Shown piece by piece: positions 28,684 to 46,504 of a DNA stretch of 64,000 nt. The stretch is from a virus: positions 1 through 64,000 of IMG/VR virus record IMGVR_UViG_3300020442_000509; one strand, given 5' to 3'. The position numbers and the translations under genes were made by a program. Position 1 is the first letter of the stretch; each line of letters begins with the position of its first letter. The notes below the pieces were generated by a model, which was not told where the DNA came from, searched no databases, and saw only the letters and a list, made by a program, of their open reading frames with translations.

Positions 28684-31600
28684 TCAGAGAGACAAGCTAT
28701 AGACTCTTATAGTAGGAAGAATCTGAATAGATTGTCCAGTCTCATTAAGGGCTACAGGGGAAGTGAACTGAAGTGTGTTAGATCCAGTCTTAGTAACCCT
28801 GTAAGTGCCATCTAGTGCTTCACTAGCAAACTGGGCATTACCAAAGGAAGTGAAACGGAAGTAACGCTCCATTCCTGTTTCAAGATAGTGTGCGCCGCCC
28901 ATATTAACATTGACGACGAATCCATTAGCGTCATAGGTTCCATTCTCAATGCTGATAGCATGACCAACACCTGGGGAAGGACCTGTGCGCTTGTTACCTC
29001 TACCATTAGTAGTAACGGTAAAGACATTACTGTTGTAATCTACAGTGCTGTAAAGGATTCTTTCTGTAGACCATACAGAAGCAGAACTGTTCCAGTATGG
29101 AATAAGAAGTTCTCCTTGGTTGGGGAATCCTTGACCATTATTGAAATAAGCATTCTCTACAGAAATGGACGTGTCCGTAGAGTTGATGCTTGCTGTCAGC
29201 TGTGTAGTGTACAGGAAGTTGCTGTTTGAGAGAACTCTGTTTCTCTGTGTTCTTTCCAGACTTACTGGGTGGAAAGGTTGTACAGCAGGTGCTGAAGCAT
29301 AATTAGAACCACCCTGGAGATTGATAACGTCGATTACTCTACCGCTACCAGCCTCAATTACTGTTTCAGCGAAAGCGCCCGAACCGCCACCGCCGTTAAA
29401 CAGCAGCACAGGAGGAACTTCATAGTTAGAACCAGCGTCAGTGATAATGACATCAATAACTTTTCCGTTGACTACGACAGCAGTAAATGCTGCTACATTA
29501 GGTCTCAACCCTGTATACTCATATGTATCCAAGGAAGTGGAGGAAGCAATTTGAGCAAGAGTTCTTTCGTCACCTTCTGACTTGATCTTGAGCGTATCGC
29601 CAGGATCCAGAGCGTTATATGTGTCTTCTGTAACAATGTCAAGGTTAGAACCTGTGTAGATGAAGATCTGACAGGTGCTACCTGCGCGAGGTGGTTCAGC
29701 AAACTCAAGGATAGAACCATTCAGGATGTAAGAAACTTCAGGTTCCTGGTAGATACCATTCAAGAAGATAATCAAGTTGTTGGCAGGAATGACATCAGTG
29801 GAGTCAGATTCCAGCGAGAACGGTTGCTCGTTCTTCTTAAGTACGAAAGATTTACGAGTATTGTCAAAGAATGGTTCGAGGGTATCCATGCCCTGTGTCT
29901 GACCGACATAGAAGCAGTAGAAGTCCATATTACCCAAAGGAGCTTCCGTAAAGGTAATCGTACTAGGAGATCCTGTGTAAGAATAAGATGTACCCAGTTC
30001 CTGAATAGTAGAGTTCAAGAACAGGAAGAATCTATCGTTAGCAGGGAGGGTGTATCCAGAACCGCCGACTTTAGCAGCAAACTGAGTTTGTACACCATCG
30101 AATGTGACAGTTCCAACTTCGACTTGGAAGGAGTTCTTGACAGTACCACCGACAGTAGAAGGGTCAACACCAAGCATATCCGTGTTGAGGTAACCAGATC
30201 CACCATTCTGTAGTGTTACGCTTGTTACAGCACCTGTGAGGCGGGCGATAGCGCCGCTTGCGGCAGTAGATGGATTACCACCACTGATAGCAAGTGTTGG
30301 TACAGAACCGTAGTTTACGCCAGTCTTTTGTACCTCCAGTGCCTCAAGATGCTTACCGATGATGGCAGAAGCAGTACATGTTTGAGTGATGGTATCAGCA
30401 GGGTTAGCGATAATCTCAACAACTACATCTTCATAACCAAAACCACCGTAAGTTACAGTGACGCCAGTTACTGCGCCCCCTGATACAGCAGCGGTAGCAG
30501 TGGCATTGAAACCGCTATTAGACTTAATAACAACAGTAGGCGGGTTAGTATACCCAGCACCAGCTTGTGTGATACCGATAGATTTAATGAAACCCTCTCT
30601 ACTAAGTACAGCAGTGATGTCGCCATCCGTTGTAGGGGAACCACCAGAAATGGTGATAGTCGGGGCACTCTCATAACCGTCTCCACATTGACCAACAGTT
30701 CTTGTATACGAGTTGAAGTTACCCTGACCGATTACGGCATATGCCAGATCCATCAGTGTGTCGATAGCAGAAACTACGTTGGTACATCCACCACTTACAG
30801 TGGTGATAGAAGGATCCTTATACTGACTACGTGATGTCAGGTTATAGTCTGGGTATGTCTCAAATGTCTCGTTATTGATTGCTTTGAGAACCATTGCTCT
30901 TGCTTCTTCCAGTACATACTGGGTTTCAGCTTCTTCACCCTGTACGTGTCCACCATTGAAGTACATGTCGAGGGTTTCCCACAGAATGTGGTTACCACCG
31001 AATGCGGTGTTGACACCAACGCTTCTAAGAATATCGATAGTATCAGACTTACACTGATCATCACCAATTCCAGGTGAGAGGAAAGGAGTAGGAGCAGTTC
31101 TCGTGAATGTGCTAAGAGAATCAGTATCGATTGCTACCTCAATGATATTCATGAGGGTATCGATGGCAGATTCTACGTTAGTACAACCACCACCAACACT
31201 GGTAATGCCAGAGTCGGTTACTTGTGTAATACCGTGAGAACCACGGATAGTTACAGAGGTGTTATTGATTACTTGCTTAGCAATCTTGGTTGCTTCTCTG
31301 TAAACATACTTGGCATGGATTTCTTCTCCATCCAAGTGAACAGTATTGACGTAGTAAGCAGCAGCATCATAGATCTCACTGTTACTACCAAACTTAGTAT
31401 TGATAGCAAGAGCTGTCATGACGTCTTTGACATCATCAATACAGTTGACATTGCCACCAGGTACAGTAAACGCAGCAGGCTCAGTTCTTACTGCGTGATT
31501 CATCAGATCAGTATTGATACCAGTCTCAATGATATCAATCAGAGTGGTCATAGCAGAGATGACATTCGTACATCCACCAGTGACAGTGGTAATTCCACTA

Positions 31601-34600
31601 TCGATGGTTTGCGTGAATCCATGAGAACCACCAATCGTGATTGTCTGATTATTGATCGCCTGGGTCATCAAAGATTCCATCTGGGCGATAGTGGCAAGAG
31701 TTTCTTGCTCTTCACCGTCGATACGAGTTGTACCTACGTAATAGGTGTCTGTAATATCGTATACTTCATTATTAGCACCATGAAGGATGTTGAACGAGAT
31801 CTTGTCGATCAAATCCAACATATCACTTACATAAGCGGCATTGTTACCACCGAAGTTAGGATAGTCAACTGTAGTCATCAAATGGACAGCTTCGTTTGCC
31901 AGAAGTTGTCTATTTGCCTGGAGGGTATTGTAAGCATCAAAGTGTCTGCTGCTCTGAACCTCAAATGGGATGTCGAGCATCATGCGCTCAACAGACTCGT
32001 TAGCAATCAAGTTAGTGTTGCCAGTTATCAAAGTGGCAGCATCAGCAAATCTGTTTGCTACTGGTGTACCAAAACGGTTCATCAGACCAACCGCAATATC
32101 AGCAATGATAGATGCGTTGTTGTTGATCAGAACTCTTGCGTCACCGAAGCGGTCAGCGCTGACATGACTTGCGGTGTCAAGAACATCTGTAATAACAATA
32201 TCAGCAGTAGCACCTGTACCAGTGTTACCACGCTTATTGACAAGATTGACACCATTGTAGGTTCCAGCTGTATATCCACTACCCTGGTAGATACCGTCTG
32301 TGGTATTCAGAGATGAGATAACATCACCGAAGATGTCAAGCTGGAAGTTACTAGAGATATCGGAACGTTTGAAGAAGATAATGTTACCAACAGAGTTCTC
32401 TAGAGGTGCCTCAGTAAATGTAATCGTGCTTCCAGAAACACTGTAGGAGACAGGGTTTTGGACGATTCCATTGATGGTAACCATCAACTGATTCTTATTA
32501 GTAGGTGTGACAGCAGCACCTCTGTATCTCATCTGGAAATCAGTGGTCTCGCCGTCAAACTTCACTCTCAGAGTGTGCTCACTAGCAGTGGACACTCCAG
32601 TAAGTGGCACTGCTGTACCACCAACAGCATTAGCTTTTGTGCTAGCAAGTTTGATCTGATTGTCATTAACGCGAATAACGTAGTAATCAGTTCCAGCGTC
32701 CAGACCAGCAATAGGTGTAGACTCAGCAATCTCAGGATAATAACCAGGGTTACGCTCAGGGATGCTAGAAGGATTATCGATACCACCCCAGACAATCTGA
32801 GAAAGGGTATCAATAGTTGACTTGACATCAGCACATCCACCGAGATCTACAGTAATAGTGATGTCTGTGAATGGAAGCTGGTTGACAATCGCTTGCTTAG
32901 CGAGATCTCTAGCATACTGGATGGCATAGATGGTCTCTGCTTCTTCACCGCCAACGTGATAAACGTTGTTGACAGGTTCAGTTCTAGTAACCGCAGAAAG
33001 TGTTCCGCTGTTGATTGCGGTTGTCATGATATTGACCAGAGTAGTCAAAGAAGAAACTACGTTCTGGCAGGAGTAGATATAACCACCAGTCTTTTCAGTT
33101 CTTGATACGTTCTGATGATTGATAGGATCAGTGATTGCGTTAGTAACAATCGCCATCAAAGTAGTGATAGCATTTACCTGATCAGCACACTTGACATAGT
33201 TTGGTTGATCGGGAGGTGCGGTGTCGTCAGTAATCGTCAGATCTTTGACCTGACCAACCATGTCAGAAACATCCTTGTTCTGAATTACCAGAATAGCGAT
33301 GTCTCTTGCTTGCTCGAACATGTATTCAAGCTCGCCTTCTTCTCCCTGTGCGTAACTACCAGTTACATAGAAGTTAGCACCATCCCAGGTATCATCGTTA
33401 CCACCGCCAGAAACGTTGGCAGCAATATCTTCTACAGTCTCAACAACTTTAGACTCGTAACTAGACTGAGACTGAGCAAAAGTATGTGAGGGATATTGAT
33501 TGACCATTCTGGTGTATGCTGTAGCAGCAATCTGATTCTTATTAGAATTCAGAAGGTTCATAGCATCAGCAGAACGATCGCTGACATATCCAGCTGGATC
33601 GGCAGTAATTGTCAGATCTTTGACCTGAGTTCTAGCAGTATAGTTTGTTGGGATATCATAGTTCTGGAGAGCATATGTACAATACGTCAAAGCGTATCCC
33701 ATCATCTCCGCAGATTGGGTATCTGCTCCAGCAAGTTGGATGGTGTTAGCGATATAGTCTCTACCTTGATCCCAAGACTCGCTATTTCCACCATATGCCA
33801 TGTTATAAGCAAGAGCTTCAATAACATCAACCAAATCATCAATAGCGACTTGGTTGCCACCAGGAATAGCAAATGCCTGGTTAGAAGTTTGTGCCAGCAT
33901 AGCACCAACTGCTTCTTCAGCAATCAGTTGCTTGTTTTGGAGGATCAGGTTACGGGCATCACCGAAACGAGTACCAACCAATCCAACACCACCGATGTAA
34001 GTGTCTACAGCATCCCAGGAGAATGCGTTACCACCAAAGCGGAGGTCATTACACCAGGCAACGACAATCAGTCTCAGGTCACGAGCACAGGTCGATCTGT
34101 CATAATCAGGGGTAGTACCATCAGTCAGCGTAGGATATTGTGTCTCCAGAGCTTGAACAGTTTGATCAATGATGTAATCAATGTTGCCAAGGATCAGGTT
34201 TCTAGCATCCTGGAATCTATCAGCAGGAGCAGCGTATTTTACTTTCTGACCAGTGATGAATCCATGGTTTGTAAGATTAAGAGCATCGTTAGCAACATCA
34301 ACAACGTTGCTGTCAGAACCATCTAAGGTAACAGTTCTATCTTCAATCTTGTCAAATTTCTCAACGATAGCAGTAAGAATCTTTCTAACGTCCAGAAGTT
34401 GCTTACCACTGACCAAAACGTTCGTAGGAACGGCAGCAGTATAATCTGGTTTGCCCAGAACAAAGTTTTCAATCTTAGAAAGCTTACCTACGTTAGAAGC
34501 AGAAGGTTTCGGTGTAAAGAATGTCGTTCCATTGAATGACTGATTCTCATCACCAAATCTCTCTTCATACCAGGTGTTAGGATCTGGGTTTGATGGGTTG

Positions 34601-37600
34601 TTGAAAGATCTACGACGATATCTCTTGAAGGCAGATTGGGATACAACTTGGTTACCAAATACTTTGAAACCAGCAGGGTGAGCAGAACTCTTGATCTGAT
34701 TCTTCCACTGTCTAATATTAATAGGAGAATCAATAACGTAAGAGAACTCCTGATACTTGTCAGAGTCGTAAATACGCTGTTCATTAAGATCAAGGATACC
34801 AGTGGTTCTCTTGAACTCAGCAGTAGCAGTAGCGATAGGAGATACTTTGAATGTAGCAAGTGCTCTCTCAAAGTCATGGATCTCACCAAACGCTTTGGTC
34901 TGTAGACCGAAGACAGGTTGACCCTTGGCAAACTCACCCTGAGATGCTTCTACAGAGAGAATTCTACCCTTAGGATCCCAATACTTAACTTCACCGATAG
35001 CAGAGAACGAATCAGTAGATGTACCTTGATACAGTTTCTCGCCAACCGAGAATGTACCAGGAATCATGGTAACAGTAATCTGATCACCAAGATCTGTGGT
35101 CTCTAGTACAAATGTTGAGGTTCCATTGCTACCCAGGGTGGCAGGACCAGTAAATGTGACAAAGATATTGTCAACAGCGTTTGTGTTGGTTGTAGCAAGT
35201 CTAATTTGGTTACTACCCAGACCATTTTGAATACTAGCAGCAATAGCATAGTAAACAATGTCAGGTTGGAGAGGTGTAGGCAGATTACCATCAAGCTCTC
35301 TCAGAACAACCTTAGTTCCAGTAGGAATCTTTGTATTGTATGGGAAGTTCAGTGTGCTGTTAGATGTCAGTCCAACAAAGGAGTGAGTGATCTTTGCCTG
35401 TACAGCAGGAGTAGAAGAATAACCCTTACCTGGGTTAATAACTTCAATAGCTTGGATAACTTCGTTATCAATGATGGGTTTCAAGACAGCACCAGAACCA
35501 CCACCACCGATTAGTTCGATAGTAGGAGTGGTAACGAAAGAATTTCCACCATTAGTGACTGTGAAGAAATCCACAATCTGAGTTCTCGTGAGCTGGAGGT
35601 TGTATGTTGTATTAACCTCGGGTTTGAGGGTACGGTCATGAGAATAGTTGTATGTAATATTGTCACCACCAAGACCGATGATGGTTCCAAGGTTCTCAGA
35701 CTTGAGAAGTACAGATCCACCTTCACCAGTGCCTTGCTGAATAGAGATGATTGGTGCGTTCTGGAACTTACTACCAGCATTCTCGATGACGATTTGAGAT
35801 ACAGTCTCATCAACGATTTCTGCTCTCAATACAGCATTGAGACCAGTACCACCAGAGATTTTTACATCAGGAGCTGAGAGGTAACCAGATCCAGCGTTAG
35901 TGAGATTGATAGCATCGATAGATGCGTTGATTGTAGTAGAAGTAATCGCAGGACGTACAGGAACGATTGATGTAATGGTTACAGTAAAGTCATCTGTGCC
36001 ATCTCCACCACCAGTGATCTGAGCACCTGAAATCGTAATGATATCACCAAGAGCATATGTAGTGCCACCATTGGTTACGGTAACACTAGATACATCCAAA
36101 GTAGAAGCGTCGATAACAACAGTAAACTCAACATCAGTACCTCCAGTAGGAGCAACAGACTTTTGTGTTACATTGTTGTATGTGCCAGCTACAAAATTGG
36201 CAGAGGAGTTCTGACTTGTGATACTAACTGTTCCAACACCACCATAGTATGGATCATCGATGTAGATGAGTGGTGCCTTTCTGTAGTTGCTACCACCACT
36301 GTTAATAGCGATGTTAGAGATTGTGCCCAGTTCAGGACCAGTAGCAGGGACAATAGCAGCAACAGCAGCTTGCTGTCCGCTTACAGCGGTAATAGTTGCT
36401 TGGTTAGGACCAGTGAATACTTTGTTGCGAAGAGCATTTGCCGCATTGAACATGATGAAACCACGAGTGGTAGCACCAGTCAGATTGTTACGAAGAGGTT
36501 CTACTCTTAGCGTAGAGGTATTAGCATTCCAAGAAATCACTTTACCGCGAGCAGAGTCTCCACCAAGAACTCGCTCAGAGGTAACAATGTCACCTCTAGA
36601 GAATGTACCAAATACTTGATCAAGTGTCAGGTCAACGAAATCAGGCATCGAGCAGATAACCTGAGGTAGTTGAGCAGGATTGTAACCAGTTCCATTCTCA
36701 AGAATAGCAACATCCTCTAGGAAACCAGAGATAGTTGCTGTAGCTTCCGCACCAGCACCAGATCTTTCAATGCCAGTGAACTGAGGCAGAGTAGAATAGT
36801 TTCTACCAGAGTCACCAATATTGATAGAAGCAATACCACCACTAGGATAGATTGAACTTGTAGAGTATGAAACTTCTGCGCTAGCACCATAAGCACAGTC
36901 AGGTTCTCTAGGGAGAATGAATGAGATATCGTTCTGAGTGACACTGGTAACAGTATTACTACCGATATAAGGATCTTGTATGACAGAGAGGTAGTTGCCC
37001 TGAACAGTTCCGTTGATATCGAAGTAGAACAGTGTTCCAGGGATATCTTTGACTTCTACAGTGATTGAACGCTGTTGACCAGTTACAGTGTCATTAGTAG
37101 TGTCAACAATGTTCTTGTAGGTGAAGATGTTAGTATTCTCAGCGTCAAAGGTAAACTCAAGTCTCTTTCCATCATTAGAAGTATCTTCAGTCTTAAACTT
37201 GTACTTGTGACCGTTGATCAGATCGAGTTTGGGTTCTCTGTTATAGACTTGCGTAGAAGTGATAACACCAGTGCTGACAATATTCTGTACAGCTTTTTCA
37301 AATTGGAATCTTCTACCAGTAGATGTGCCTGTGACAGTATGCGTACCGTCATAGTCAGCAGGAGTTGTGCCAGAAACAACTACAACATCACCAGTAGTAA
37401 GTTGGTGAGCAGCAGTCCCTCTGAGCGTAAATTCTTGAATAATCTTGTTTGGAGTGATATAGAAACCACTACCATTACCAATATCACTATTTGTAGCAGT
37501 TAGTTGTTCTCCAACTACGTAACCACTACCAGGATTTGTGACAGTAACTTCGCTAACTTCACCGCTAGAGTTGACAACGATAGTAAACAGAGCACCCTCA

Positions 37601-40600
37601 CCTGATGATACACCAGAGTTGAACAGGGGTACGTTAGTGTAGGTACCTTCAGTATATCCAGATCCAGCAAAGAGTGTCCAATCATTTTGACTGATTTTAC
37701 CAGTCTTCAGTACGACACCAATATCCATTTGGAATCCAGTTCCAGTTCCACCAATCTGAGAGGCGGAAGCGGTCAGAACATCTCCATCTTTATAGTTCTT
37801 TCCTTGACTTACGATAGTTACACCAGTAACTTCGTTACCACTTACAATGATATTAGCAGTCGCAGCAGTACCACTACCACCAGACAGTGCTACACCATTA
37901 TATGTTCCATTGGTATAGTTCTCACCAGCAGTGATGGTTAGGTTTGCCTGGAGAACTCGACCAGGACTACTTACAATGAAGCTACTGACATCATAGTATT
38001 TGAAGTGATACTTGTTGTCAATGATCTTGACGTCAATATCTCTTTGGTTCTCATTGTTGCCAATGAAAACATCAACAAACTCTTCAGGTTTGATATAGTG
38101 GGTGTCTGCTGCTCCGATAGTCGCAGTAATTACATCAGTGTCAGGATTTACGGCGAAGTTTAGGGTATTGACATCTACGCCAGTAATTCTAGAGATACGC
38201 GCAGAAATACCACTACCACCAGTAGACTCTTCTGTGAATACCAGTCTGTCATTTACCTTATATCCTCTACCAGCACCTTCAATCAGGTATTGGTTGACAC
38301 CTTCACTAAAATATCTGTTAGTAGCAGATACAAACAGAGAATCTGTAGATCCACCACGGATGGATGGGAAGTAATCGTAGTATCCGATACCAACGTCTAC
38401 AAAACCAATGAAGTTACCACCAGTGTCCTGTTCTAGGACGATAGGTGTTGTAGCGTCTTCCAGAGCAAGAATATAATTAACGGGGTCCCCCAGATCCTTA
38501 CGTCTGACAACAGCGCCATCAGTGAATACGTACGGAGCCTTGTATCGAACCGCGTCCTCGCTGAATCTTGATTGAAGTCCATTTCCGTTCCAGTTGATAT
38601 TGTCCGCTTGACTGTAGAAGTCAGGTCCAATAAAGTATGGGAACTTGGGATTACCTGTGGTACCATCTAGAGTACAGAAATAAGCGTATACACCTTCGGG
38701 ATACTCAGGTGTGACGCAGAAGCGTCCATTGTACTTATCAAGGTCGCCAAGACCCTCTACGTACTCAAAGTCTTCAATATATGTACCCATGGTGTCAGTG
38801 AGACCTGTTACCAGAGAATCACGACCAGAACGGATTCTATAGCTCGAAGTCATCTGCTTGAGCTGGTTGAATGGGTTTCTGTTCTGTTTATCTACGTAAG
38901 CATAAGGTCCATAGATGGGATGTCCATCATATGCCCAACCGAGGATAGGAGAGTGTCTCGTGGGGTTGAGTTCTCCATATGAATCATTTACGTTGTCACC
39001 CAGCAAGAATCTAAGAATCTTGGGGTTGTACATATATCCATACTCACCACCATAGATTGAGAAGTTAGCGCCTGTCATAGAGACGCCATTGCCTTCATCA
39101 GCAATTTTGGGGGAAGTATAGCTTAGGGGGTCAACTCCAAGTTCATCAGCAGTCGCTGCCTTGTTAATAGTAAGTTGAGGCAGTTCTACTTGGAATCTAG
39201 CGCCAGCACCAGGATATACGATGTCTACAAAGGTTTTACCTGATGTATAACCAGCACCACCATTAGTTACATTAATAGAGGTAACTTGCTGAGAACTACT
39301 ATCAATCTGAGCAAACGCAACAGCACCAACGCCATCACCTGTAATTACAACGTCAGGAGGTCCATAGTAGTTGGTACCACCGTAAGTCAGGATAATAGAA
39401 ACGATTCTACCGTTGACAATACTAGGATAAGCAACAGCGCCGCTACCAGAGATAAGAGTAATGTTCGGGCGTTCATCATACCTAGTACCAGCATTAGTGA
39501 TAGTAATTCCATCTTCAGTCAAACCACCACGGACAACTGCCTGAGCAGTTGCTCCAGTTCCGCCACCACCAGTAATTGTTACTGTAGGAACACTATCGTA
39601 TCCACTACCTTCAGCAGTGACTGTAATTGACGTAACTCTACCAGAAGTGATCGTTGCTGTCGCAGCAGCTTGAATAGTGGGGTTACCACCTGAAATAGCA
39701 ACAGTAGGAGCGGTAGTATAGTCTTGACCGCCGTTAGTAACGTTAACTGAGAATACTCGACCAGAAACACTAACTGTCGCCTGTGCTGAGACGCCTTCAA
39801 AGTCCCAGAGACACTGACCATCCTGTACAGCATTTCCGCTGCTGTGAGTGGGTTCTGTGCCCCTCTGAGCGCTCTTACCGCTTCCTAGGTTCTTATATCT
39901 TTGTCCAGAGCTATTACGGACTCTTTGACCCAAGAAGTAGTTTGTATCTGGTTTCCAGAGCGGTTCAAACTCAACGATAGGTGGATTAGTAATATCGTAA
40001 CCATCACCTGCGTCAACAACAGAAATACTCTTAACACCACCAAATAACTTAGTGTCTTCAGACTTATATGAGAAAAACGGGACGCCATTAGTACCGATAC
40101 CGATTTGACCGACTGGAGTCGCCTGTTTTGTCGATTTGGTCTTGGTAGTGCGAGGAATACGCTTCAGATAGCGTTGGTTGCCAGGATCAAGGTCATCAGC
40201 ACCAAATGGACCAATTTTGTGACCTGGGATGCCAGGAGACGCAACAATACAGTGATCATCCGTTCTGTATGTGTTTTGAACGTCAGAAGGCGTCTGTTGG
40301 ACTTTTAGGCGAATTGATGTGTCGTCAGAAGTCGCTTTTGCGAATTCACGAGTAATAAGGAACTGTTGTCCACTAACACCTTGATTTGGAGTTACTGGAA
40401 TCTGGATATCGAAGACTTTGGCGGAGCTAACACCAACAACAGCAAATTCGGAGTTGTAGACGTCTTCTGGTGCGTTTAGAATGCGAATCGTGTCAGCACG
40501 CTTCAATCCATGGTTTTCAGTTGTAGTTACGGTCGCAATAACTCTACCTTGAGCGTCTGGAGACGAAAGAGTCAGTTGGGAACCAGTAAGTAGCTTTTTA

Positions 40601-41991
40601 GTGTTGTAAATGAAGGATGGCCAGATAGATTCGTTAGAATCAAATCCAGGAGCGGCAGGAGTCGTAACTTTCGAGTCCTGAATGTAATACTTACCACCAT
40701 CGGTTAGTTCAATGCCTCTGGTGCCACCAAACACCTTCAGAGTGATCTTACTACCATCTCTGTTGGAATATCCGAAGATCTCGAAGGCAGAGATGACTTC
40801 AGAACCAGCAATGTGACTTGATACTGTAGTATTGTCTCTAGCGCGAGTACAACCTAAGAATTGGTTGACAGTTTTGTCTGTATAGGTAAGAACCTCAGAA
40901 CCAATACGGATTTTGCCATCTAACTCAGGCCAACCGAGTGTAGAGTCAACAGTGACGATATCTTCGTCTAATCTGTCGCCAATGTCTTCTGACAGAGTTG
41001 TTTTGTATGGTGTGGCAAATGTACCTTGACCATTTTCAGTATCTACGTCCAATTCGTAGATTTTGCCGTCTTCAGTGAAAACCTCGACAACAGTTTTGAC
41101 GTAAATGCGTGCGTCGTTAACTAGAGGGTCTGTAGGGTCGTTTGCCTGGTACAGAACCTGTCCAGTAAGCTCTACAGGGTTACCATCTAGAGCGTCAGCT
41201 CTAATAACCTCTCTGACACTGTAGAATGCGTCAGATGGTTTGAAAATTCTATCTTTAGGATATCTTACTTCAGATTCGATGCCATACAGCACTCTCATCA
41301 GATATTGGAAAGATCTGGAGGTACCTTTAGCGGCATAGAAGTCTTTCAGTCTTTTTGTGACCGAAGACTGTTTGATTCTACTGTCAAACGCAGTTGGGAA
41401 TGCTTCTGCGAACTGATCGCGGAATCTGCCGAGCATAAACAGCGGCAGAAGGTTATTCAGGTTGACACACTCATCCCCAAAGGAATGAGCAGCTGCTACA
41501 GAGTCAGAAAACGTATATTCGCCCAAAGTGCCAATTTTGGTCGTAGCATGGAAGCCTCTGACGCAATGTTGGAGTTGGGTTGAGTTTTTTGACTTATAAT
41601 AGATGATCTCATCGTTGATCATCGCCAGACCTTCCTTCGGGAAGTCTCTGGTGTTCACAACGTCGATAGTTGTCGCATCAATCGCTACAGCAGACGATAC
41701 AGTCGTCTTTTCGACCAGATCGTTCAGTTTGTCAATATTATAGTAGTCATCAAAGTTGTTGACGACATCCATGGGTCCACCACGGAGTTCAGCAGACTTA
41801 AAGTACAGTTTGAGGAACTCTACAAAGTCTGGGTAGTCTTCTCTGACGAATTGAGGTAGTTGCTCCTCAATCCTTTCTGAAATTTTAGTTCTACTCTCGG
41901 GAGAGACGCTAGAATCTGTTGGGTCTACTGCCACCTGGGTAGGTGGAGTTACCCAAGAGGATATTCTCCAAGAAGACTGCTCAATCGGCAT
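28684..41991 (-). CDS. 4435 aa giant baseplate-associated protein with YHYH domain and helical repeats
   Basis: Starts MPIEQSSWRISSWVTPP. The first 300 residues (ISERIEEQLPQFVREDYPDF, then AAKGTSRSFQYLMRVLYG) are of the kind seen in cyanophage proteins placed between gp6 and gp8. This is the slot of T4 gp7, but homology to gp7 cannot be shown here. Beta-repeats of the type GSGYDSVPTVTITGGGG fill about residues 680-960 and recur later. A YHYH-type domain lies near 990-1120 (GWAYDGHPIYGPYAY and EGVYAYFCTLDG). Residues about 2600-3700 hold helical repeats with GEE-x(9-11)-ARD-x-A. It is joined to gp6 with six bases between stop and ATG, without its own clear promoter. The gene takes up 13.3 kb, a fifth of the window. 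Confidence 0.88.
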   Translation of the reverse strand: MPIEQSSWRISSWVTPPTQVAVDPTDSSVSPESRTKISERIEEQLPQFVREDYPDFVEFLKLYFKSAELRGGPMDVVNNFDDYYNIDKLNDLVEKTTVSSAVAIDATTIDVVNTRDFPKEGLAMINDEIIYYKSKNSTQLQHCVRGFHATTKIGTLGEYTFSDSVAAAHSFGDECVNLNNLLPLFMLGRFRDQFAEAFPTAFDSRIKQSSVTKRLKDFYAAKGTSRSFQYLMRVLYGIESEVRYPKDRIFKPSDAFYSVREVIRADALDGNPVELTGQVLYQANDPTDPLVNDARIYVKTVVEVFTEDGKIYELDVDTENGQGTFATPYKTTLSEDIGDRLDEDIVTVDSTLGWPELDGKIRIGSEVLTYTDKTVNQFLGCTRARDNTTVSSHIAGSEVISAFEIFGYSNRDGSKITLKVFGGTRGIELTDGGKYYIQDSKVTTPAAPGFDSNESIWPSFIYNTKKLLTGSQLTLSSPDAQGRVIATVTTTENHGLKRADTIRILNAPEDVYNSEFAVVGVSSAKVFDIQIPVTPNQGVSGQQFLITREFAKATSDDTSIRLKVQQTPSDVQNTYRTDDHCIVASPGIPGHKIGPFGADDLDPGNQRYLKRIPRTTKTKSTKQATPVGQIGIGTNGVPFFSYKSEDTKLFGGVKSISVVDAGDGYDITNPPIVEFEPLWKPDTNYFLGQRVRNSSGQRYKNLGSGKSAQRGTEPTHSSGNAVQDGQCLWDFEGVSAQATVSVSGRVFSVNVTNGGQDYTTAPTVAISGGNPTIQAAATATITSGRVTSITVTAEGSGYDSVPTVTITGGGGTGATAQAVVRGGLTEDGITITNAGTRYDERPNITLISGSGAVAYPSIVNGRIVSIILTYGGTNYYGPPDVVITGDGVGAVAFAQIDSSSQQVTSINVTNGGAGYTSGKTFVDIVYPGAGARFQVELPQLTINKAATADELGVDPLSYTSPKIADEGNGVSMTGANFSIYGGEYGYMYNPKILRFLLGDNVNDSYGELNPTRHSPILGWAYDGHPIYGPYAYVDKQNRNPFNQLKQMTSSYRIRSGRDSLVTGLTDTMGTYIEDFEYVEGLGDLDKYNGRFCVTPEYPEGVYAYFCTLDGTTGNPKFPYFIGPDFYSQADNINWNGNGLQSRFSEDAVRYKAPYVFTDGAVVRRKDLGDPVNYILALEDATTPIVLEQDTGGNFIGFVDVGIGYYDYFPSIRGGSTDSLFVSATNRYFSEGVNQYLIEGAGRGYKVNDRLVFTEESTGGSGISARISRITGVDVNTLNFAVNPDTDVITATIGAADTHYIKPEEFVDVFIGNNENQRDIDVKIIDNKYHFKYYDVSSFIVSSPGRVLQANLTITAGENYTNGTYNGVALSGGSGTAATANIIVSGNEVTGVTIVSQGKNYKDGDVLTASASQIGGTGTGFQMDIGVVLKTGKISQNDWTLFAGSGYTEGTYTNVPLFNSGVSSGEGALFTIVVNSSGEVSEVTVTNPGSGYVVGEQLTATNSDIGNGSGFYITPNKIIQEFTLRGTAAHQLTTGDVVVVSGTTPADYDGTHTVTGTSTGRRFQFEKAVQNIVSTGVITSTQVYNREPKLDLINGHKYKFKTEDTSNDGKRLEFTFDAENTNIFTYKNIVDTTNDTVTGQQRSITVEVKDIPGTLFYFDINGTVQGNYLSVIQDPYIGSNTVTSVTQNDISFILPREPDCAYGASAEVSYSTSSIYPSGGIASINIGDSGRNYSTLPQFTGIERSGAGAEATATISGFLEDVAILENGTGYNPAQLPQVICSMPDFVDLTLDQVFGTFSRGDIVTSERVLGGDSARGKVISWNANTSTLRVEPLRNNLTGATTRGFIMFNAANALRNKVFTGPNQATITAVSGQQAAVAAIVPATGPELGTISNIAINSGGSNYRKAPLIYIDDPYYGGVGTVSITSQNSSANFVAGTYNNVTQKSVAPTGGTDVEFTVVIDASTLDVSSVTVTNGGTTYALGDIITISGAQITGGGDGTDDFTVTITSIVPVRPAITSTTINASIDAINLTNAGSGYLSAPDVKISGGTGLNAVLRAEIVDETVSQIVIENAGSKFQNAPIISIQQGTGEGGSVLLKSENLGTIIGLGGDNITYNYSHDRTLKPEVNTTYNLQLTRTQIVDFFTVTNGGNSFVTTPTIELIGGGGSGAVLKPIIDNEVIQAIEVINPGKGYSSTPAVQAKITHSFVGLTSNSTLNFPYNTKIPTGTKVVLRELDGNLPTPLQPDIVYYAIAASIQNGLGSNQIRLATTNTNAVDNIFVTFTGPATLGSNGTSTFVLETTDLGDQITVTMIPGTFSVGEKLYQGTSTDSFSAIGEVKYWDPKGRILSVEASQGEFAKGQPVFGLQTKAFGEIHDFERALATFKVSPIATATAEFKRTTGILDLNEQRIYDSDKYQEFSYVIDSPINIRQWKNQIKSSAHPAGFKVFGNQVVSQSAFKRYRRRSFNNPSNPDPNTWYEERFGDENQSFNGTTFFTPKPSASNVGKLSKIENFVLGKPDYTAAVPTNVLVSGKQLLDVRKILTAIVEKFDKIEDRTVTLDGSDSNVVDVANDALNLTNHGFITGQKVKYAAPADRFQDARNLILGNIDYIIDQTVQALETQYPTLTDGTTPDYDRSTCARDLRLIVVAWCNDLRFGGNAFSWDAVDTYIGGVGLVGTRFGDARNLILQNKQLIAEEAVGAMLAQTSNQAFAIPGGNQVAIDDLVDVIEALAYNMAYGGNSESWDQGRDYIANTIQLAGADTQSAEMMGYALTYCTYALQNYDIPTNYTARTQVKDLTITADPAGYVSDRSADAMNLLNSNKNQIAATAYTRMVNQYPSHTFAQSQSSYESKVVETVEDIAANVSGGGNDDTWDGANFYVTGSYAQGEEGELEYMFEQARDIAILVIQNKDVSDMVGQVKDLTITDDTAPPDQPNYVKCADQVNAITTLMAIVTNAITDPINHQNVSRTEKTGGYIYSCQNVVSSLTTLVNIMTTAINSGTLSAVTRTEPVNNVYHVGGEEAETIYAIQYARDLAKQAIVNQLPFTDITITVDLGGCADVKSTIDTLSQIVWGGIDNPSSIPERNPGYYPEIAESTPIAGLDAGTDYYVIRVNDNQIKLASTKANAVGGTAVPLTGVSTASEHTLRVKFDGETTDFQMRYRGAAVTPTNKNQLMVTINGIVQNPVSYSVSGSTITFTEAPLENSVGNIIFFKRSDISSNFQLDIFGDVISSLNTTDGIYQGSGYTAGTYNGVNLVNKRGNTGTGATADIVITDVLDTASHVSADRFGDARVLINNNASIIADIAVGLMNRFGTPVANRFADAATLITGNTNLIANESVERMMLDIPFEVQSSRHFDAYNTLQANRQLLANEAVHLMTTVDYPNFGGNNAAYVSDMLDLIDKISFNILHGANNEVYDITDTYYVGTTRIDGEEQETLATIAQMESLMTQAINNQTITIGGSHGFTQTIDSGITTVTGGCTNVISAMTTLIDIIETGINTDLMNHAVRTEPAAFTVPGGNVNCIDDVKDVMTALAINTKFGSNSEIYDAAAYYVNTVHLDGEEIHAKYVYREATKIAKQVINNTSVTIRGSHGITQVTDSGITSVGGGCTNVESAIDTLMNIIEVAIDTDSLSTFTRTAPTPFLSPGIGDDQCKSDTIDILRSVGVNTAFGGNHILWETLDMYFNGGHVQGEEAETQYVLEEARAMVLKAINNETFETYPDYNLTSRSQYKDPSITTVSGGCTNVVSAIDTLMDLAYAVIGQGNFNSYTRTVGQCGDGYESAPTITISGGSPTTDGDITAVLSREGFIKSIGITQAGAGYTNPPTVVIKSNSGFNATATAAVSGGAVTGVTVTYGGFGYEDVVVEIIANPADTITQTCTASAIIGKHLEALEVQKTGVNYGSVPTLAISGGNPSTAASGAIARLTGAVTSVTLQNGGSGYLNTDMLGVDPSTVGGTVKNSFQVEVGTVTFDGVQTQFAAKVGGSGYTLPANDRFFLFLNSTIQELGTSYSYTGSPSTITFTEAPLGNMDFYCFYVGQTQGMDTLEPFFDNTRKSFVLKKNEQPFSLESDSTDVIPANNLIIFLNGIYQEPEVSYILNGSILEFAEPPRAGSTCQIFIYTGSNLDIVTEDTYNALDPGDTLKIKSEGDERTLAQIASSTSLDTYEYTGLRPNVAAFTAVVVNGKVIDVIITDAGSNYEVPPVLLFNGGGGSGAFAETVIEAGSGRVIDVINLQGGSNYASAPAVQPFHPVSLERTQRNRVLSNSNFLYTTQLTASINSTDTSISVENAYFNNGQGFPNQGELLIPYWNSSASVWSTERILYSTVDYNSNVFTVTTNGRGNKRTGPSPGVGHAISIENGTYDANGFVVNVNMGGAHYLETGMERYFRFTSFGNAQFASEALDGTYRVTKTGSNTLQFTSPVALNETGQSIQILPTIRVYSLSL

Positions 41992-41997
41992 TTTTTA

Positions 41998-43863
41998 TCA
42001 ACTATAGCTTGATTCGGGGACAACACCAGTACCAGCAACGTTAGCACCGCTGCTGATCTCATCATCAATAACATTGACCACTAGGTTATCTATACCTATT
42101 GTCAGATAGGTCTCTCTGAGTGAAACCAGATCGTTAGATTCTGGAATTACAGAGAATTGAAGTGTATTGGTAATTGATCCAGGAACTTCGTCAATAATGA
42201 CGTCGTTAACAGTTACTTCACCTTCCACATAATCTACAGTACCCCAATTACCGTTAATATACTGTCTTGTACCATCTGTGTTGATGTAGAAGAGGCGAAT
42301 ATTGCCAACTCCATCATCATTGAGGTAGTATGTGAAATTACCGCCGTCAGCACGCTTAAAACCGTTTGTAATAAGCGAAGGGGAGTCTCCAGCACCTTCT
42401 ACCTGGGCATTGATACGATTACCAAAACAAATCTTGTAATTGAAGCGTTGATTCAACGTAACGTTGACATTCTTACGCATCCGTATTCTGGTAATGTTCG
42501 ATGTGATGGATTTCTCCGCATCATCGATCACTTTTTGGAATTTCGAGAATTTGAACTTACCACCAAACTTGTTAAACTCGTTAGTTGCGTTCAAAGCGTT
42601 TAGCTGAGCGTAAACTACTTGCTTAATCTCTTCCTGAGAACGTTTAGTGATGTTGGGGTTGAAATATACGAAAGTTACCAAGTCAATGTACAATACAGAC
42701 GGATCCATGATCTTGGGTTCGACTGCTCCGACAGAATAACTGCGAAGTTTCTTCAAAACTGCGTCTTTTTCGGAAATAGACAGTCTGTCCGCATTTTTGG
42801 GTTTGATGACAACCATTACCTTGCCATATTCAGGCGGTGATGCCTCTTCTCCGCCAAATGCGACGATAGATTGTACATTAGGGTAGATTTGAGGAATAAT
42901 TGCCTCATAATCTTTTGTAGTTACCGCTCTACCGAAACTAGAGTAGAATTTGGGAGCAGTATACTTAATAGAACTGGTAGATTCTGGATCTGCGCCACCA
43001 TCAGGCTTAGTTTTCAGCGTGACAGTGATTCCAGAGGTGATTGGGTTGTTAGCAGAGTCCTTAGCAGTTCCTGCAAACGTAAATTGGTCCAATCCGTTTG
43101 CTAGTGGACCAGCGGAGGTTGTATAAGTTGCTTCAATCACATCTCCGTTAAAAAGAGCTTCACCAATAACACCATCACCGAAAATAAGTTCGGGTCTGCG
43201 GTATTCTGACTCTTCTAGGAAGAATGTTTTACTACTTGAGTTCAAAGCAGTGATATCATCACCTTTTAGATACGCATCAGTCACGGTTCCGCGTGTTACT
43301 TCAATAGAAAGCGTAGAAGTATCAGCAGATACGTTAGAAAGGATGAATCTTTGGCGCTCATTGACTTCTTTGACGAAAGTATCCGTCAAAAATACGCCTT
43401 CGTAGCAAACTACGTCGGTAAAAGTCGCTTTTCCGTCCAAGGTGTTGACGGAAGCGATCAAATCTTTCGGAATTGAGAAAATAAATGTGTTTTTCTGCTC
43501 TCCTTGGAAGCTTAGAAGCACTCCTTTGTTGATTTGGACCGTTGCGGGGTACGGATACGCGGTTTGAACAACAATATCAACCTTTGCTTGCGCGGATCTA
43601 GCGCTTCTCGGCGTGTAACCGATCAATTTTGCCAATTTTACGACATTTTCGCGCATTACAGCGCTGTCTAGGAAGTTTTCGTTCGCTAGAAGGTTCGCAT
43701 TGACGGAAGAATAGTAAGTATTATACGCAAGAACGTCCAAAAGGACCGAAAGTGACGACCCTTCAAAGTCATAGTCACTAAATTGGTCCTGACCGCGCAA
43801 ATACGCCATCAGTTGGGCTTTGATCTCGTTAAATTCTAACGAGTTAATCTGGGTAAGAGCCAT
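41998..43863 (-). CDS. 6: Baseplate wedge protein gp6
   Basis: Starts MALTQINSLEFNEIKAQLM. The segment FSDYDFEGSSLSVLLDVLAYNTYYS (residues about 28-52, shown in part) with NANLLANENFLDSAVMRENV, KLIGYTP and ARSAQAKVDI is the typical gp6/J-like wedge start, including the D-x-x-x-EGS-x-L-S-x-L-x-D-x-L-A-Y-N motif. The length of 621 aa is close to T4 gp6 (660 aa). In T4, gp6 dimers form the inner ring of the baseplate together with gp25 and gp53. It directly follows gp25 with a TAATG overlap and an AGGAG SD, the standard T4-like order. Confidence 0.93.
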   Translation of the reverse strand: MALTQINSLEFNEIKAQLMAYLRGQDQFSDYDFEGSSLSVLLDVLAYNTYYSSVNANLLANENFLDSAVMRENVVKLAKLIGYTPRSARSAQAKVDIVVQTAYPYPATVQINKGVLLSFQGEQKNTFIFSIPKDLIASVNTLDGKATFTDVVCYEGVFLTDTFVKEVNERQRFILSNVSADTSTLSIEVTRGTVTDAYLKGDDITALNSSSKTFFLEESEYRRPELIFGDGVIGEALFNGDVIEATYTTSAGPLANGLDQFTFAGTAKDSANNPITSGITVTLKTKPDGGADPESTSSIKYTAPKFYSSFGRAVTTKDYEAIIPQIYPNVQSIVAFGGEEASPPEYGKVMVVIKPKNADRLSISEKDAVLKKLRSYSVGAVEPKIMDPSVLYIDLVTFVYFNPNITKRSQEEIKQVVYAQLNALNATNEFNKFGGKFKFSKFQKVIDDAEKSITSNITRIRMRKNVNVTLNQRFNYKICFGNRINAQVEGAGDSPSLITNGFKRADGGNFTYYLNDDGVGNIRLFYINTDGTRQYINGNWGTVDYVEGEVTVNDVIIDEVPGSITNTLQFSVIPESNDLVSLRETYLTIGIDNLVVNVIDDEISSGANVAGTGVVPESSYS

Positions 43864-44252
43864 TATCTCCTAAAGATGACGTCTATTTGATCAATAACAT
43901 TGGGAAGACCGACCATGAGGTATCTAATTGTGATACCCAGTTCATTCATGTCTTCATTGAAAGCTGCTTCTACGTCGTAACACACTACTCGTGGTTCGTA
44001 GTTATTCACACAGTTCTGGATTTGAGCCTCAATGGCACCAGAATTACCTGCTTCATACAGTTCAAACAACATGGCAAGCGTGTTTCCACCAAAATTTGGC
44101 AAGAACGGTTTCTCATAGAAGTTGTATCGAACGATGTTCTTTACCGCTTCTTTGATTGCGTTCTCGTTAGTAAGGGTGTTAACGTCCTTCGTGATGGGAT
44201 TCTTACGAAAAGATAGGTCAAAATCCCTAAACGATTGACTTGTTGCTGCCAT
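43863..44252 (-). CDS. 25: Baseplate wedge protein gp25
   Basis: 129 aa, against 132 aa in T4. The core motif KPFLPNFGGN at residues 48-57 and the conserved EPR triplet at 86-88 (YEPRVV) identify the gp25/TssE-like family, which links the baseplate wedge to the sheath initiation site. Starts MAATSQSFRDFDLSFRKNP and ends IDQIDVIFRR. Its stop overlaps the gp6 start. The 50 aa gene ends 20 bases upstream, so the two are probably on one message. Confidence 0.94.
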   Translation of the reverse strand: MAATSQSFRDFDLSFRKNPITKDVNTLTNENAIKEAVKNIVRYNFYEKPFLPNFGGNTLAMLFELYEAGNSGAIEAQIQNCVNNYEPRVVCYDVEAAFNEDMNELGITIRYLMVGLPNVIDQIDVIFRR

Positions 44253-44678: not shown

Positions 44679-44993
44679 TTAGTCGCCAATGTACACCCTT
44701 TTAGCACCTGCTGACAGTCCATGGTTGCCCGTTGCGTCGCCACAACCGTGATCTGAACCCAATCTACCGCACTTAATACCGTTTACAAAGACAGTATTGG
44801 ACCCATTGACGATATTTCTGCTGCTTGTAGGGTGTACAGTGGTTCCACAACTGTGAGCAGCGTATCTATCGCCCACTCTAGCGACCTTCATACCGCCCGC
44901 ATAGACGTTTGGAGACCCCTCAATACAAGCTGTCGGGGGGAAACACCCATGACCAGTGGAAAAACCACCTAATACTGCTGGAGTTGTTGCCAT
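44679..44993 (-). CDS. PAAR-domain tail spike tip protein
   Basis: 104 aa, close to T4 gp5.4 (97 aa). It has the PAAR layout: GGFSTGHGCFPPTACIEGS, then NVYAGGMKVARVGD, HSCGTTVHPT, NTVFVNGIKCGRLGS and DHGCGDAT, ending RVYIGD. Candidate zinc ligands are H15, H47, C49 and H54. PAAR proteins cap the gp5 needle at the centre of the baseplate and sharpen it for piercing the outer membrane. It is coupled to the 215 aa gene by TAATG at 44993. Confidence 0.93.
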   Translation of the reverse strand: MATTPAVLGGFSTGHGCFPPTACIEGSPNVYAGGMKVARVGDRYAAHSCGTTVHPTSSRNIVNGSNTVFVNGIKCGRLGSDHGCGDATGNHGLSAGAKRVYIGD

Positions 44994-45640
44994 TACGTGC
45001 CGTATCTAATCTTGTTTGCCATAATATCCTGCATCTTGTCGCGTCCTAGGTCCCAGTTATTCAGAATCGTTTGATTGATATTGAATACTTGGGTAAATGG
45101 AACGCCAGCACAGAGCAGGTTCACTGTATATGTATATGTCACAACCCTCTGTGACCTGAAGTCAGGCTTATATCTGATCAGAGTGTCACAAGGATTCGGG
45201 ATCTCGTCCTCAAACTGCCCACCAGAGGCATATGGTTCCTGTACACTATCCTTGGTAACGTTGTATATACGCCCCGCAGGATCGCTCATAGTGGACTGTA
45301 ACTCGATGATGGGTATATGGGCAGCATCACCTGTTGTATCGTCCCTGTACTCCCATTCACGCTGATCAAAGTACGTCTCATTGAACGTCCCATTGATGGA
45401 CAATACTGGACTATTACTAATAGTCGCTGTAGGAATATACGTCAAGCTGCCTACAGGAAAACCTGGGCATAACCCAGGTGCTATCCCAGTCGCCAATGAA
45501 GGCGTTACTGCGGTCATTGAAACCGACACGAATGTTTCAACGGTCGTGCCAGCACAGATCGTCGGTATAATAGTAATAGCATCACTGAATGCTACTCCTA
45601 TCGTAGCGTCGTTGAATGATGATTTTGATAACGTTGCCAT
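44993..45640 (-). CDS. Unknown tail/baseplate-associated protein, 215 aa
   Basis: Starts MATLSKSSFNDATIGVAF. The N-terminal 80 residues are rich in Thr, Ala, Pro and Val with beta character. The C-terminal half has QEPYASGGQFEDEIPNPCD, YTYTVNLLCAGVPFTQVF and the end MQDIMANKIRYGT. No motif of T4 gp53 or gp5 is visible, although the place before PAAR and gp25 suggests a baseplate part. A perfect 11-bp inverted repeat overlaps its SD (AAGG) and its ATG, with a late-like box at the outer edge of the 5' arm. This suggests control of translation by promoter choice. Confidence 0.82.
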   Translation of the reverse strand: MATLSKSSFNDATIGVAFSDAITIIPTICAGTTVETFVSVSMTAVTPSLATGIAPGLCPGFPVGSLTYIPTATISNSPVLSINGTFNETYFDQREWEYRDDTTGDAAHIPIIELQSTMSDPAGRIYNVTKDSVQEPYASGGQFEDEIPNPCDTLIRYKPDFRSQRVVTYTYTVNLLCAGVPFTQVFNINQTILNNWDLGRDKMQDIMANKIRYGT

Positions 45641-45694
45641 ACCTTAGAGGAGGACGCGGGTTTTACGCGATTTTTTTACTCTAAGGTATTTAAC
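45639..45694 (-). promoter_or_regulatory. Late-promoter-like box plus SD-hiding hairpin before the 215 aa gene
   Basis: A perfect 11-bp inverted repeat has arms 45639-45649 and 45679-45689. On the minus-strand RNA the 3' arm is CUCUAAGGUAU, holding the AAGG SD and the first two bases of the AUG. The 5' arm is the end of the 54 aa gene. A GTTAAATA box at 45687-45694 partly overlaps the outer edge of the 5' arm, so a transcript started from it would begin within that arm and could not form the full hairpin. A small CGCG hairpin sits in the loop. Confidence 0.55.
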
Positions 45695-45840
45695 CGCTTT
45701 TCGTGGTCTAAAACGACATCTACGAGTTTCTCGTATTCCTCAGAGCCTGGACGCCGCATGAGCAACTTCATATCATTCAGACGTTGCTCTAATGCTTCTA
45801 CCTGGGACTTCAAGAGAAGGATCATGTCGCGGTCTGTCAT
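45676..45840 (-). CDS. Small helical protein, 54 aa
   Basis: Starts MTDRDMILLLKSQVEALEQR and ends LDHEKRLNTLE. It is almost wholly helical with leucine/valine heptads (LLLKSQVEALEQRLNDMKLL), so it is probably a short coiled coil. The start overlaps the stop of the 68 aa gene as ATGA. Its last codons (ACC TTA GAG) form one arm of the hairpin that can hide the SD of the next gene, so translation to the end of this gene could itself affect that hairpin. Confidence 0.7.
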   Translation of the reverse strand: MTDRDMILLLKSQVEALEQRLNDMKLLMRRPGSEEYEKLVDVVLDHEKRLNTLE

Positions 45841-46043
45841 TGCTTTTCCATGTACTTACAATTTTCGCTGCGGATATCGTACACAAGACGATAAGTGTCA
45901 GTGTGTACGTAATACTCGTCAATTTCTTTTCCATCGGATGATTGGAAGCCATAACCTCTCACGGTTTCACGTTTGCCGTCAATGTAGAACATCTTGTCGT
46001 CATTGTGAAGATACGAGTGGTAACGTTCATCCAGGTTGATCAT
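45837..46043 (-). CDS. Unknown small protein, 68 aa
   Basis: Starts MINLDERYHSYLHNDDKMF and contains YIDGKRETVRGYGFQSSDGK and YYVHTDTYRLVYDIR, ending CKYMEKQ. It is acidic and rich in Tyr and Asp, and looks like a small beta-rich fold. Both ends overlap neighbours by ATGA (46040-46043 and 45837-45840), which places it in one operon with the phosphopantetheinyl-transferase-like gene upstream. No carrier-protein D-S-L motif is present, so it does not look like the substrate of that enzyme. Confidence 0.7.
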   Translation of the reverse strand: MINLDERYHSYLHNDDKMFYIDGKRETVRGYGFQSSDGKEIDEYYVHTDTYRLVYDIRSENCKYMEKQ

Positions 46044-46504
46044 AGTGCTACTGCTCCAGCAAGATTGTCGGGAAGTCCCTCAAGAGTAATTATACCCATT
46101 CCCTTCGGGATCGCAATGCCAAGACGCCCTCCGATACCTTTCTTAGCCTTCTTCCAGTACGCTTCTTTCCTCACCCATTCCTGGTAGAAAGTGTCGGGAT
46201 CATCGGTAATCTCGGAGATATCAAAGTAACGCCTCGAAAGTTTCCCAACGGGGCGTTCTCGCTTGTATTCAATATCAACCCCAATCCTCTTGGAGCTTAC
46301 CGCAACGGCGAGGTAGTTCTCGCTATCGGATTTACTCCAATGGACGTGGGCGGGCGTGAAGCAATCCAAGCGCCCTTCCAACCAATCGGCAATACACAGG
46401 CGGATAATCTCGGAGTGACTCTCCTTGGGGTTTTCAAAAAGATATACTCGGAATTTTTTCTCGGAAAAAATTTTTAGAATAGGGATCCTACGTTTTTCAA
46501 ACAT
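46040..46504 (-). CDS. Short 4'-phosphopantetheinyl-transferase-like protein (Sfp superfamily)
   Basis: 154 aa, shorter than Sfp-type enzymes (about 220-230 aa) but longer than one AcpS subunit. Superfamily signatures are in order: VHWSKSDSENYLAVAV at about 54-69 (place of the usual S-H-S loop), RIGVDIEYKRERP with D77 and E79, and FYQEWVRKEAYWKKAKKGIGG with W110, K113, E114 and K118. In the family, the D, the E of GVDIE and the E of W-x-x-KE-A bind Mg, and the enzyme moves phosphopantetheine from CoA to a Ser of a carrier protein. The His of S-H-S is replaced by Lys58, so CoA binding may differ or activity may be lost. No carrier protein is seen in the window. A TATAAA box lies about 30 bases upstream. 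Confidence 0.75.
   Translation of the reverse strand: MFEKRRIPILKIFSEKKFRVYLFENPKESHSEIIRLCIADWLEGRLDCFTPAHVHWSKSDSENYLAVAVSSKRIGVDIEYKRERPVGKLSRRYFDISEITDDPDTFYQEWVRKEAYWKKAKKGIGGRLGIAIPKGMGIITLEGLPDNLAGAVAL

Follow-up and report, generated by a model that had tools for sequence, protein, structure and literature searches.

The DNA analysed here (the window: positions 1 to 64,000 of the IMG/VR virus record IMGVR_UViG_3300020442_000509) comes from a marine cyanobacterial virus and carries a gene for a member of the 4'-phosphopantetheinyl transferase (PPTase) superfamily (Sfp/AcpS), which, from its sequence and modelled structure, we read as a compact enzyme, probably of Sfp type and of an already known kind. 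The enzyme's substrate is probably the phage's own acyl carrier protein (ACP), used perhaps in spike or virion assembly. In relatives of this phage, the ACP gene lies behind a gp5-like spike gene, and this linkage, outside the window, is the unusual element of the system.

A compact predicted transferase, probably of Sfp type, with an intact active site

The open reading frame on the minus strand starts with ATG at 46504, ends with a stop at 46040 and encodes 154 aa, confirming the small size given in an earlier sequence-only reading; translation of the plus strand of 46040-46504 is interrupted by stops. The gene and its diagnostic residues are as follows:

46040..46504, minus strand: compact predicted 4'-phosphopantetheinyl transferase, probably Sfp-type, 154 aa, phrog_23098 / T4-GC500 family (assigned by PF01648, profile match to Sfp and fold)
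46268..46282, minus strand: motif G75-V-D77-I-E79, the Mg2+ and CoA diphosphate site in Sfp (aligns with Sfp GIDIE; G75, D77, I78 and E79 invariant)
46151..46177, minus strand: motif W110-x-x-K113-E114-A-Y-x-K118 (W110, K113, E114, A115, Y116 and K118 invariant)
46331..46333, minus strand: K58, Lys replacing the His of the SHS motif (invariant in the family)

PF01648 is the sole Pfam family listed for the protein at E up to 1. The match (E 6.5e-5, 23.4 bits) falls just under the 25-bit gathering score, which is exceeded by the relatives G001 (29.2 bits) and G020 (33.5 bits); all 24 aligned relatives match the family, the best at 2.7e-9. The phrog_23098 profile finds the window protein at 7e-29, and within this family (T4-GC500) the window gene shares with PHM1_077 the gene order PPTase, 54-aa gene, PAAR, gp25, gp6. 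A profile of the PPTase family in turn recovers Sfp at 3.4e-8. For the AlphaFold model (pLDDT 80.8, pTM 0.77), the top 19 Foldseek matches are all PPTases, and the model aligns with Sfp (Z 11.8 over 131 residues) and with AcpS (Z 9.9, rmsd 1.9, over 80 residues). The superfamily membership put forward in the sequence-only reading is thus upheld by both of the comparisons it had proposed, the profile search and the fold.

AcpS enzymes are about 120 aa long, consist of one half-domain and work as trimers. The second half of the window PPTase superposes on one AcpS subunit (1f80, 1f7l), but the model holds both half-domains in one chain; at 154 aa the protein exceeds the single half-domain of about 120 aa that defines the AcpS subtype, and its extra N-terminal half, which is short, aligns to Sfp from residue 1. 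With Bacillus subtilis Sfp (1qr0, 4mrt) it shares the fold, the GIDIE and W-x-x-K-E motifs and the catalytic residues; Sfp differs in its length of 225 aa, in having the SHS His where all members of the phage family have Lys58, and in acting on peptidyl carrier proteins.

Residue invariance was scored in an alignment of 24 PPTase-family members (A2). D77, E79, W110, K113, E114 and K118 are invariant, as is K58, which in the window protein lies within W56-S-K58-S; the motif marks and the His-to-Lys replacement had been read correctly from the sequence. The equivalent of K58 is His in 32 of the 38 scored bacterial homologues. G020, which lies outside this alignment, keeps W-T-A-K-E-A-K-I-K and W-N-K-S. 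The data do not establish the further idea that the enzyme is reduced or has taken on another role, since every catalytic residue is kept; Lys58 could bind the CoA phosphate in place of His. A median dN/dS of 0.20 over 266 pairs indicates that the gene is under purifying selection. The protein has the features of a compact PPTase whose active site is intact, and we predict that it transfers phosphopantetheine.

Relatives were found at 54 IMG/VR loci and in the Prochlorococcus phages P-HM1, P-HM2 and MED4-213, those of P-HM1 and P-HM2 being annotated as 4'-P-pantetheinyl transferase. The window protein is 99% identical to that of locus L001 and 83% identical to that of the 200-kb contig G001. 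The family was reported in 2010 as a phage ACP synthetase ('ACPS', T4-GC500, PHM1_077 / PHM2_076) in P-HM1 and P-HM2, alongside the ACP T4-GC457 (Sullivan et al, 2010; PMC3037559). The earlier view of the gene as unusual for a cyanophage thus holds in that it is uncommon among them, but it is not a first. The P-HM1 and P-HM2 proteins resemble that of the window in family (phrog_23098), place upstream of PAAR-gp25-gp6-gp7 and catalytic residues, and have an ACP on the same genome; they differ in being about 40% identical and in having other small genes between PPTase and PAAR, and the window contig does not cover the ACP region. Both the family and the finding of PPTase and ACP genes in a single genome have thus been published before, and the window adds a divergent member.

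Position upstream of the baseplate genes

The PPTase gene lies a short way upstream of PAAR-gp25-gp6-gp7 in a run of genes on one strand, in agreement with the operon setting noted earlier. Two small genes follow it, coupled by overlaps of 4 bases as had also been observed:

45837..46043, minus strand: 68-aa gene, phrog_6312, function not assigned; it overlaps the end of the PPTase gene by 4 bases
45676..45840, minus strand: 54-aa gene, homologue of PHM1_079 (T4-GC501); its start overlaps the stop of the 68-aa gene by 4 bases
44993..45640, minus strand: 215-aa protein; by synteny it takes the place of a gene annotated 'toxin' in P-HM1
44679..44993, minus strand: PAAR-motif protein, spike-tip type (PF05488, 4.1e-9)
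43863..44252, minus strand: gp25 baseplate wedge protein (PF04965, 2e-10)
41998..43863, minus strand: gp6 baseplate wedge protein, 61% identical to P-HM1 gp6 over 620 aa
60308..63973, minus strand: tail-fibre-like protein whose ORF runs past the window end; synteny anchor from the window to the ACP-ward region in G001 and P-HM1

Two small proteins are encoded between the PAAR and gp25 genes, and a homologue of the 54-aa gene is found after the PPTase gene in most relatives. A scan for late promoters upstream of the PPTase gene gave nothing convincing. The name 'toxin' for the P-HM1 gene in the position of the 215-aa protein is without visible support, its product having no significant Pfam match, and the window protein (44993-45640) likewise gave no match to Pfam. 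The gp7 position (28684-41991) is occupied by an ORF of 4,435 aa, similar in length to P-HM1 gp7 and far longer than T4 gp7.

Among relatives with enough flanking DNA, gp25/gp6 lie downstream of the PPTase gene in 36 of 46 loci. The other loci, about ten and all of one clade, are without gp25/gp6 downstream. We read two of them (L068 1573-4188 and L080 1051-3711), in which a PPTase of this clade (about 138-148 aa) lies downstream of ORFs that we identify, by ORF reading, as nrdA and nrdB, and not upstream of PAAR-gp25.

A carrier-protein gene of related phages linked to the tail-spike gene

A PF00550 search identified an ACP in P-HM1, P-HM2 (PHM2_029), MED4-213 and G001, all of which bear the PPTase, and none in S-CAM4, a cyanophage without this PPTase. 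Contig G020 likewise has both genes, so that ACP and PPTase occur together in 5/5 genomes that cover both sites; P-HM1, P-HM2 and MED4-213 belong to one genus, and their shared gene content is not independent. Fourteen PPTase contigs without ACP were left out of this count as fragments, as was G021: this partial contig has no PPTase next to PAAR, but nrdA/nrdB mark another place where the gene occurs. In the samples 3300040808 and 3300004369, PPTase and ACP lie on separate contigs. Among 50,697 phage records, near-full-length matches to this ACP were confined to the three PPTase-carrying phages, other matches being partial. Short ACPs (about 80-90 aa) of phiMAM1 and Motura are not beside annotated baseplate genes, so that the spike cassette is not the general setting of phage ACPs.

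No carrier protein is visible in the window, from which the sequence-only reading had concluded that a host carrier was the likely target. This conclusion does not hold up well: the far end of the window contig (69,801 bases) aligns to G001 at a point some 2.3 kb before the ACP, and every genome covering both sites has both genes. A host carrier as main target is less likely given the phage ACP in relatives. The carrier with D-S-L that the same reading proposed to look for is thus found in relatives; no ACP was seen in the window's own contig, and in this phage its region would, by synteny, lie beyond the contig end. L297 (IMGVR_UViG_3300032193_000463), a contig from the same sample as L001, breaks off inside the spike gene; it may represent some of the sequence of this phage that the window contig lacks.

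By TIGR00517 (75.5 and 72.5 bits against a cut-off of 70.45), the phage ACP is a fatty-acid-type carrier. Its C terminus extends past the core shared with such ACPs, and the DSL serine is kept in 80/80 ACP loci; a single-sequence model (pLDDT 43) was too low for use. Strict dependence of ACP and PPTase on each other is ruled out by the 189-kb contig G019 (189,106 bp), which has the spike-cassette ACP (L208, 5001-5426) and no PF01648 match; its GVDI match falls in a tail-fibre-like protein. Host enzymes can therefore presumably serve the ACP, phages of this type may rely on the host PPTase, and the phage PPTase would be an optional helper.

The linkage of ACP and spike was scanned from both sides, using the best 80 matches for each and thus the nearer part of each family. 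Starting from ACP, a gp5-like spike gene lies upstream in 75/75 loci whose upstream DNA exceeds 1.2 kb; starting from the spike, ACP lies downstream in 62/62 loci with enough DNA, the other 18 ending within 1 kb of the spike. The usual order is gp5 hub, spike, the two small genes GC456 and GC29, ACP, and ACP mostly follows the spike by about 470 bases. No phage of the collection other than P-HM1, P-HM2 and MED4-213 has GC456, and other cyanophages are absent among the spike matches listed. An extended fatty-acid-type ACP after a gp5-like beta-helix spike gene thus characterizes a cyanomyovirus group (L143 3494-5498 and 79 further ACP loci) and is wider than the PPTase finding.

We propose that the window PPTase would move the phosphopantetheine arm of CoA onto the DSL serine of the ACP of the same phage. 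This ACP would be a fixed member of the tail-spike cassette, with its gene expected just past the contig end, and the holo- or acyl-ACP would then serve spike or virion assembly. This last step is put forward tentatively. It is conceivable, if somewhat doubtful, that the ACP, once loaded by the phage PPTase, is dedicated to assembling the cell-puncturing spike or is itself built into it, delivering fatty acids to the gp5-like beta-helix, for instance. To our knowledge, T4 itself encodes neither an ACP nor a PPTase. The beta-helix of T4 gp5 binds fatty acids (PMC4576200), and the P-HM1 spike (PHM1_024), two genes before ACP, weakly matches Gp5_trimer_C (E 7e-4, below the cut-off). Binding of fatty acids by the cyanophage spike is hypothetical. 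Together with the ACP-spike link, the T4 precedent favours the role in assembly. Searches for phage proteins that might use acyl-ACP detected neither HlyC (PF02794) nor a ketoacyl synthase (PF00109); for Acetyltransf_5 (PF13444), P-HM1 gave a single match, below threshold. This outcome weighs against the proposal, as does the presence of ACP without PPTase in G019. Our literature search retrieved no paper giving a function to the PPTase-ACP pair.

Alternative roles and significance

Sfp-type PPTases are often promiscuous, and the phage carrier resembles those of fatty-acid synthesis, so the gene could instead be an auxiliary metabolic gene: its product would act mainly on host AcpP, or both ACPs would feed host fatty-acid synthesis, and lipid production would shift in infection, as the sequence-only reading suggested. 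The clade that adjoins nrdA/nrdB, a metabolic neighbourhood, speaks for such a role and, lying away from the baseplate genes, also counts against assembly. We nevertheless regard host metabolism as an unlikely destination: the phage ACP is present with the PPTase wherever both sites are covered, it is tied to the spike gene and not to metabolic genes, and 36 of the 46 PPTase loci with enough DNA lie upstream of gp25/gp6.

The dedicated loading enzyme and the extended C terminus of the ACP would also suit a decoy role, in which the pair sequesters host CoA or host fatty-acid enzymes and so halts host lipid synthesis, but this would leave the strict link to the spike gene unexplained, and we consider it very improbable. 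Hardly more probable is a protein that keeps the PPTase fold with its activity lost or changed, for example as an ACP-binding scaffold. Its length (154 aa versus about 225 in Sfp), short N-terminal half, PF01648 score just below the cut-off and invariant K58, at a position with His in 32/38 bacterial homologues, could be read in this way; against this, the Mg2+ and base residues are all invariant in 24 members, the median dN/dS is 0.20, relatives exceed the PF01648 cut-off, and binding of the CoA phosphate by the Lys is still conceivable.

Genes for ACPs and PPTases in phages are commonly classed as auxiliary metabolic genes; the reciprocal link between ACP and spike (75/75 and 62/62) points to particle assembly instead, and may bear on the fatty acids in the T4 gp5 spike, whose presence is unexplained. 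Since P-HM1, P-HM2 and MED4-213 are isolated phages growing on a cultured host, the idea is directly testable. If true, it would give carrier-protein chemistry a role in building the virus particle.
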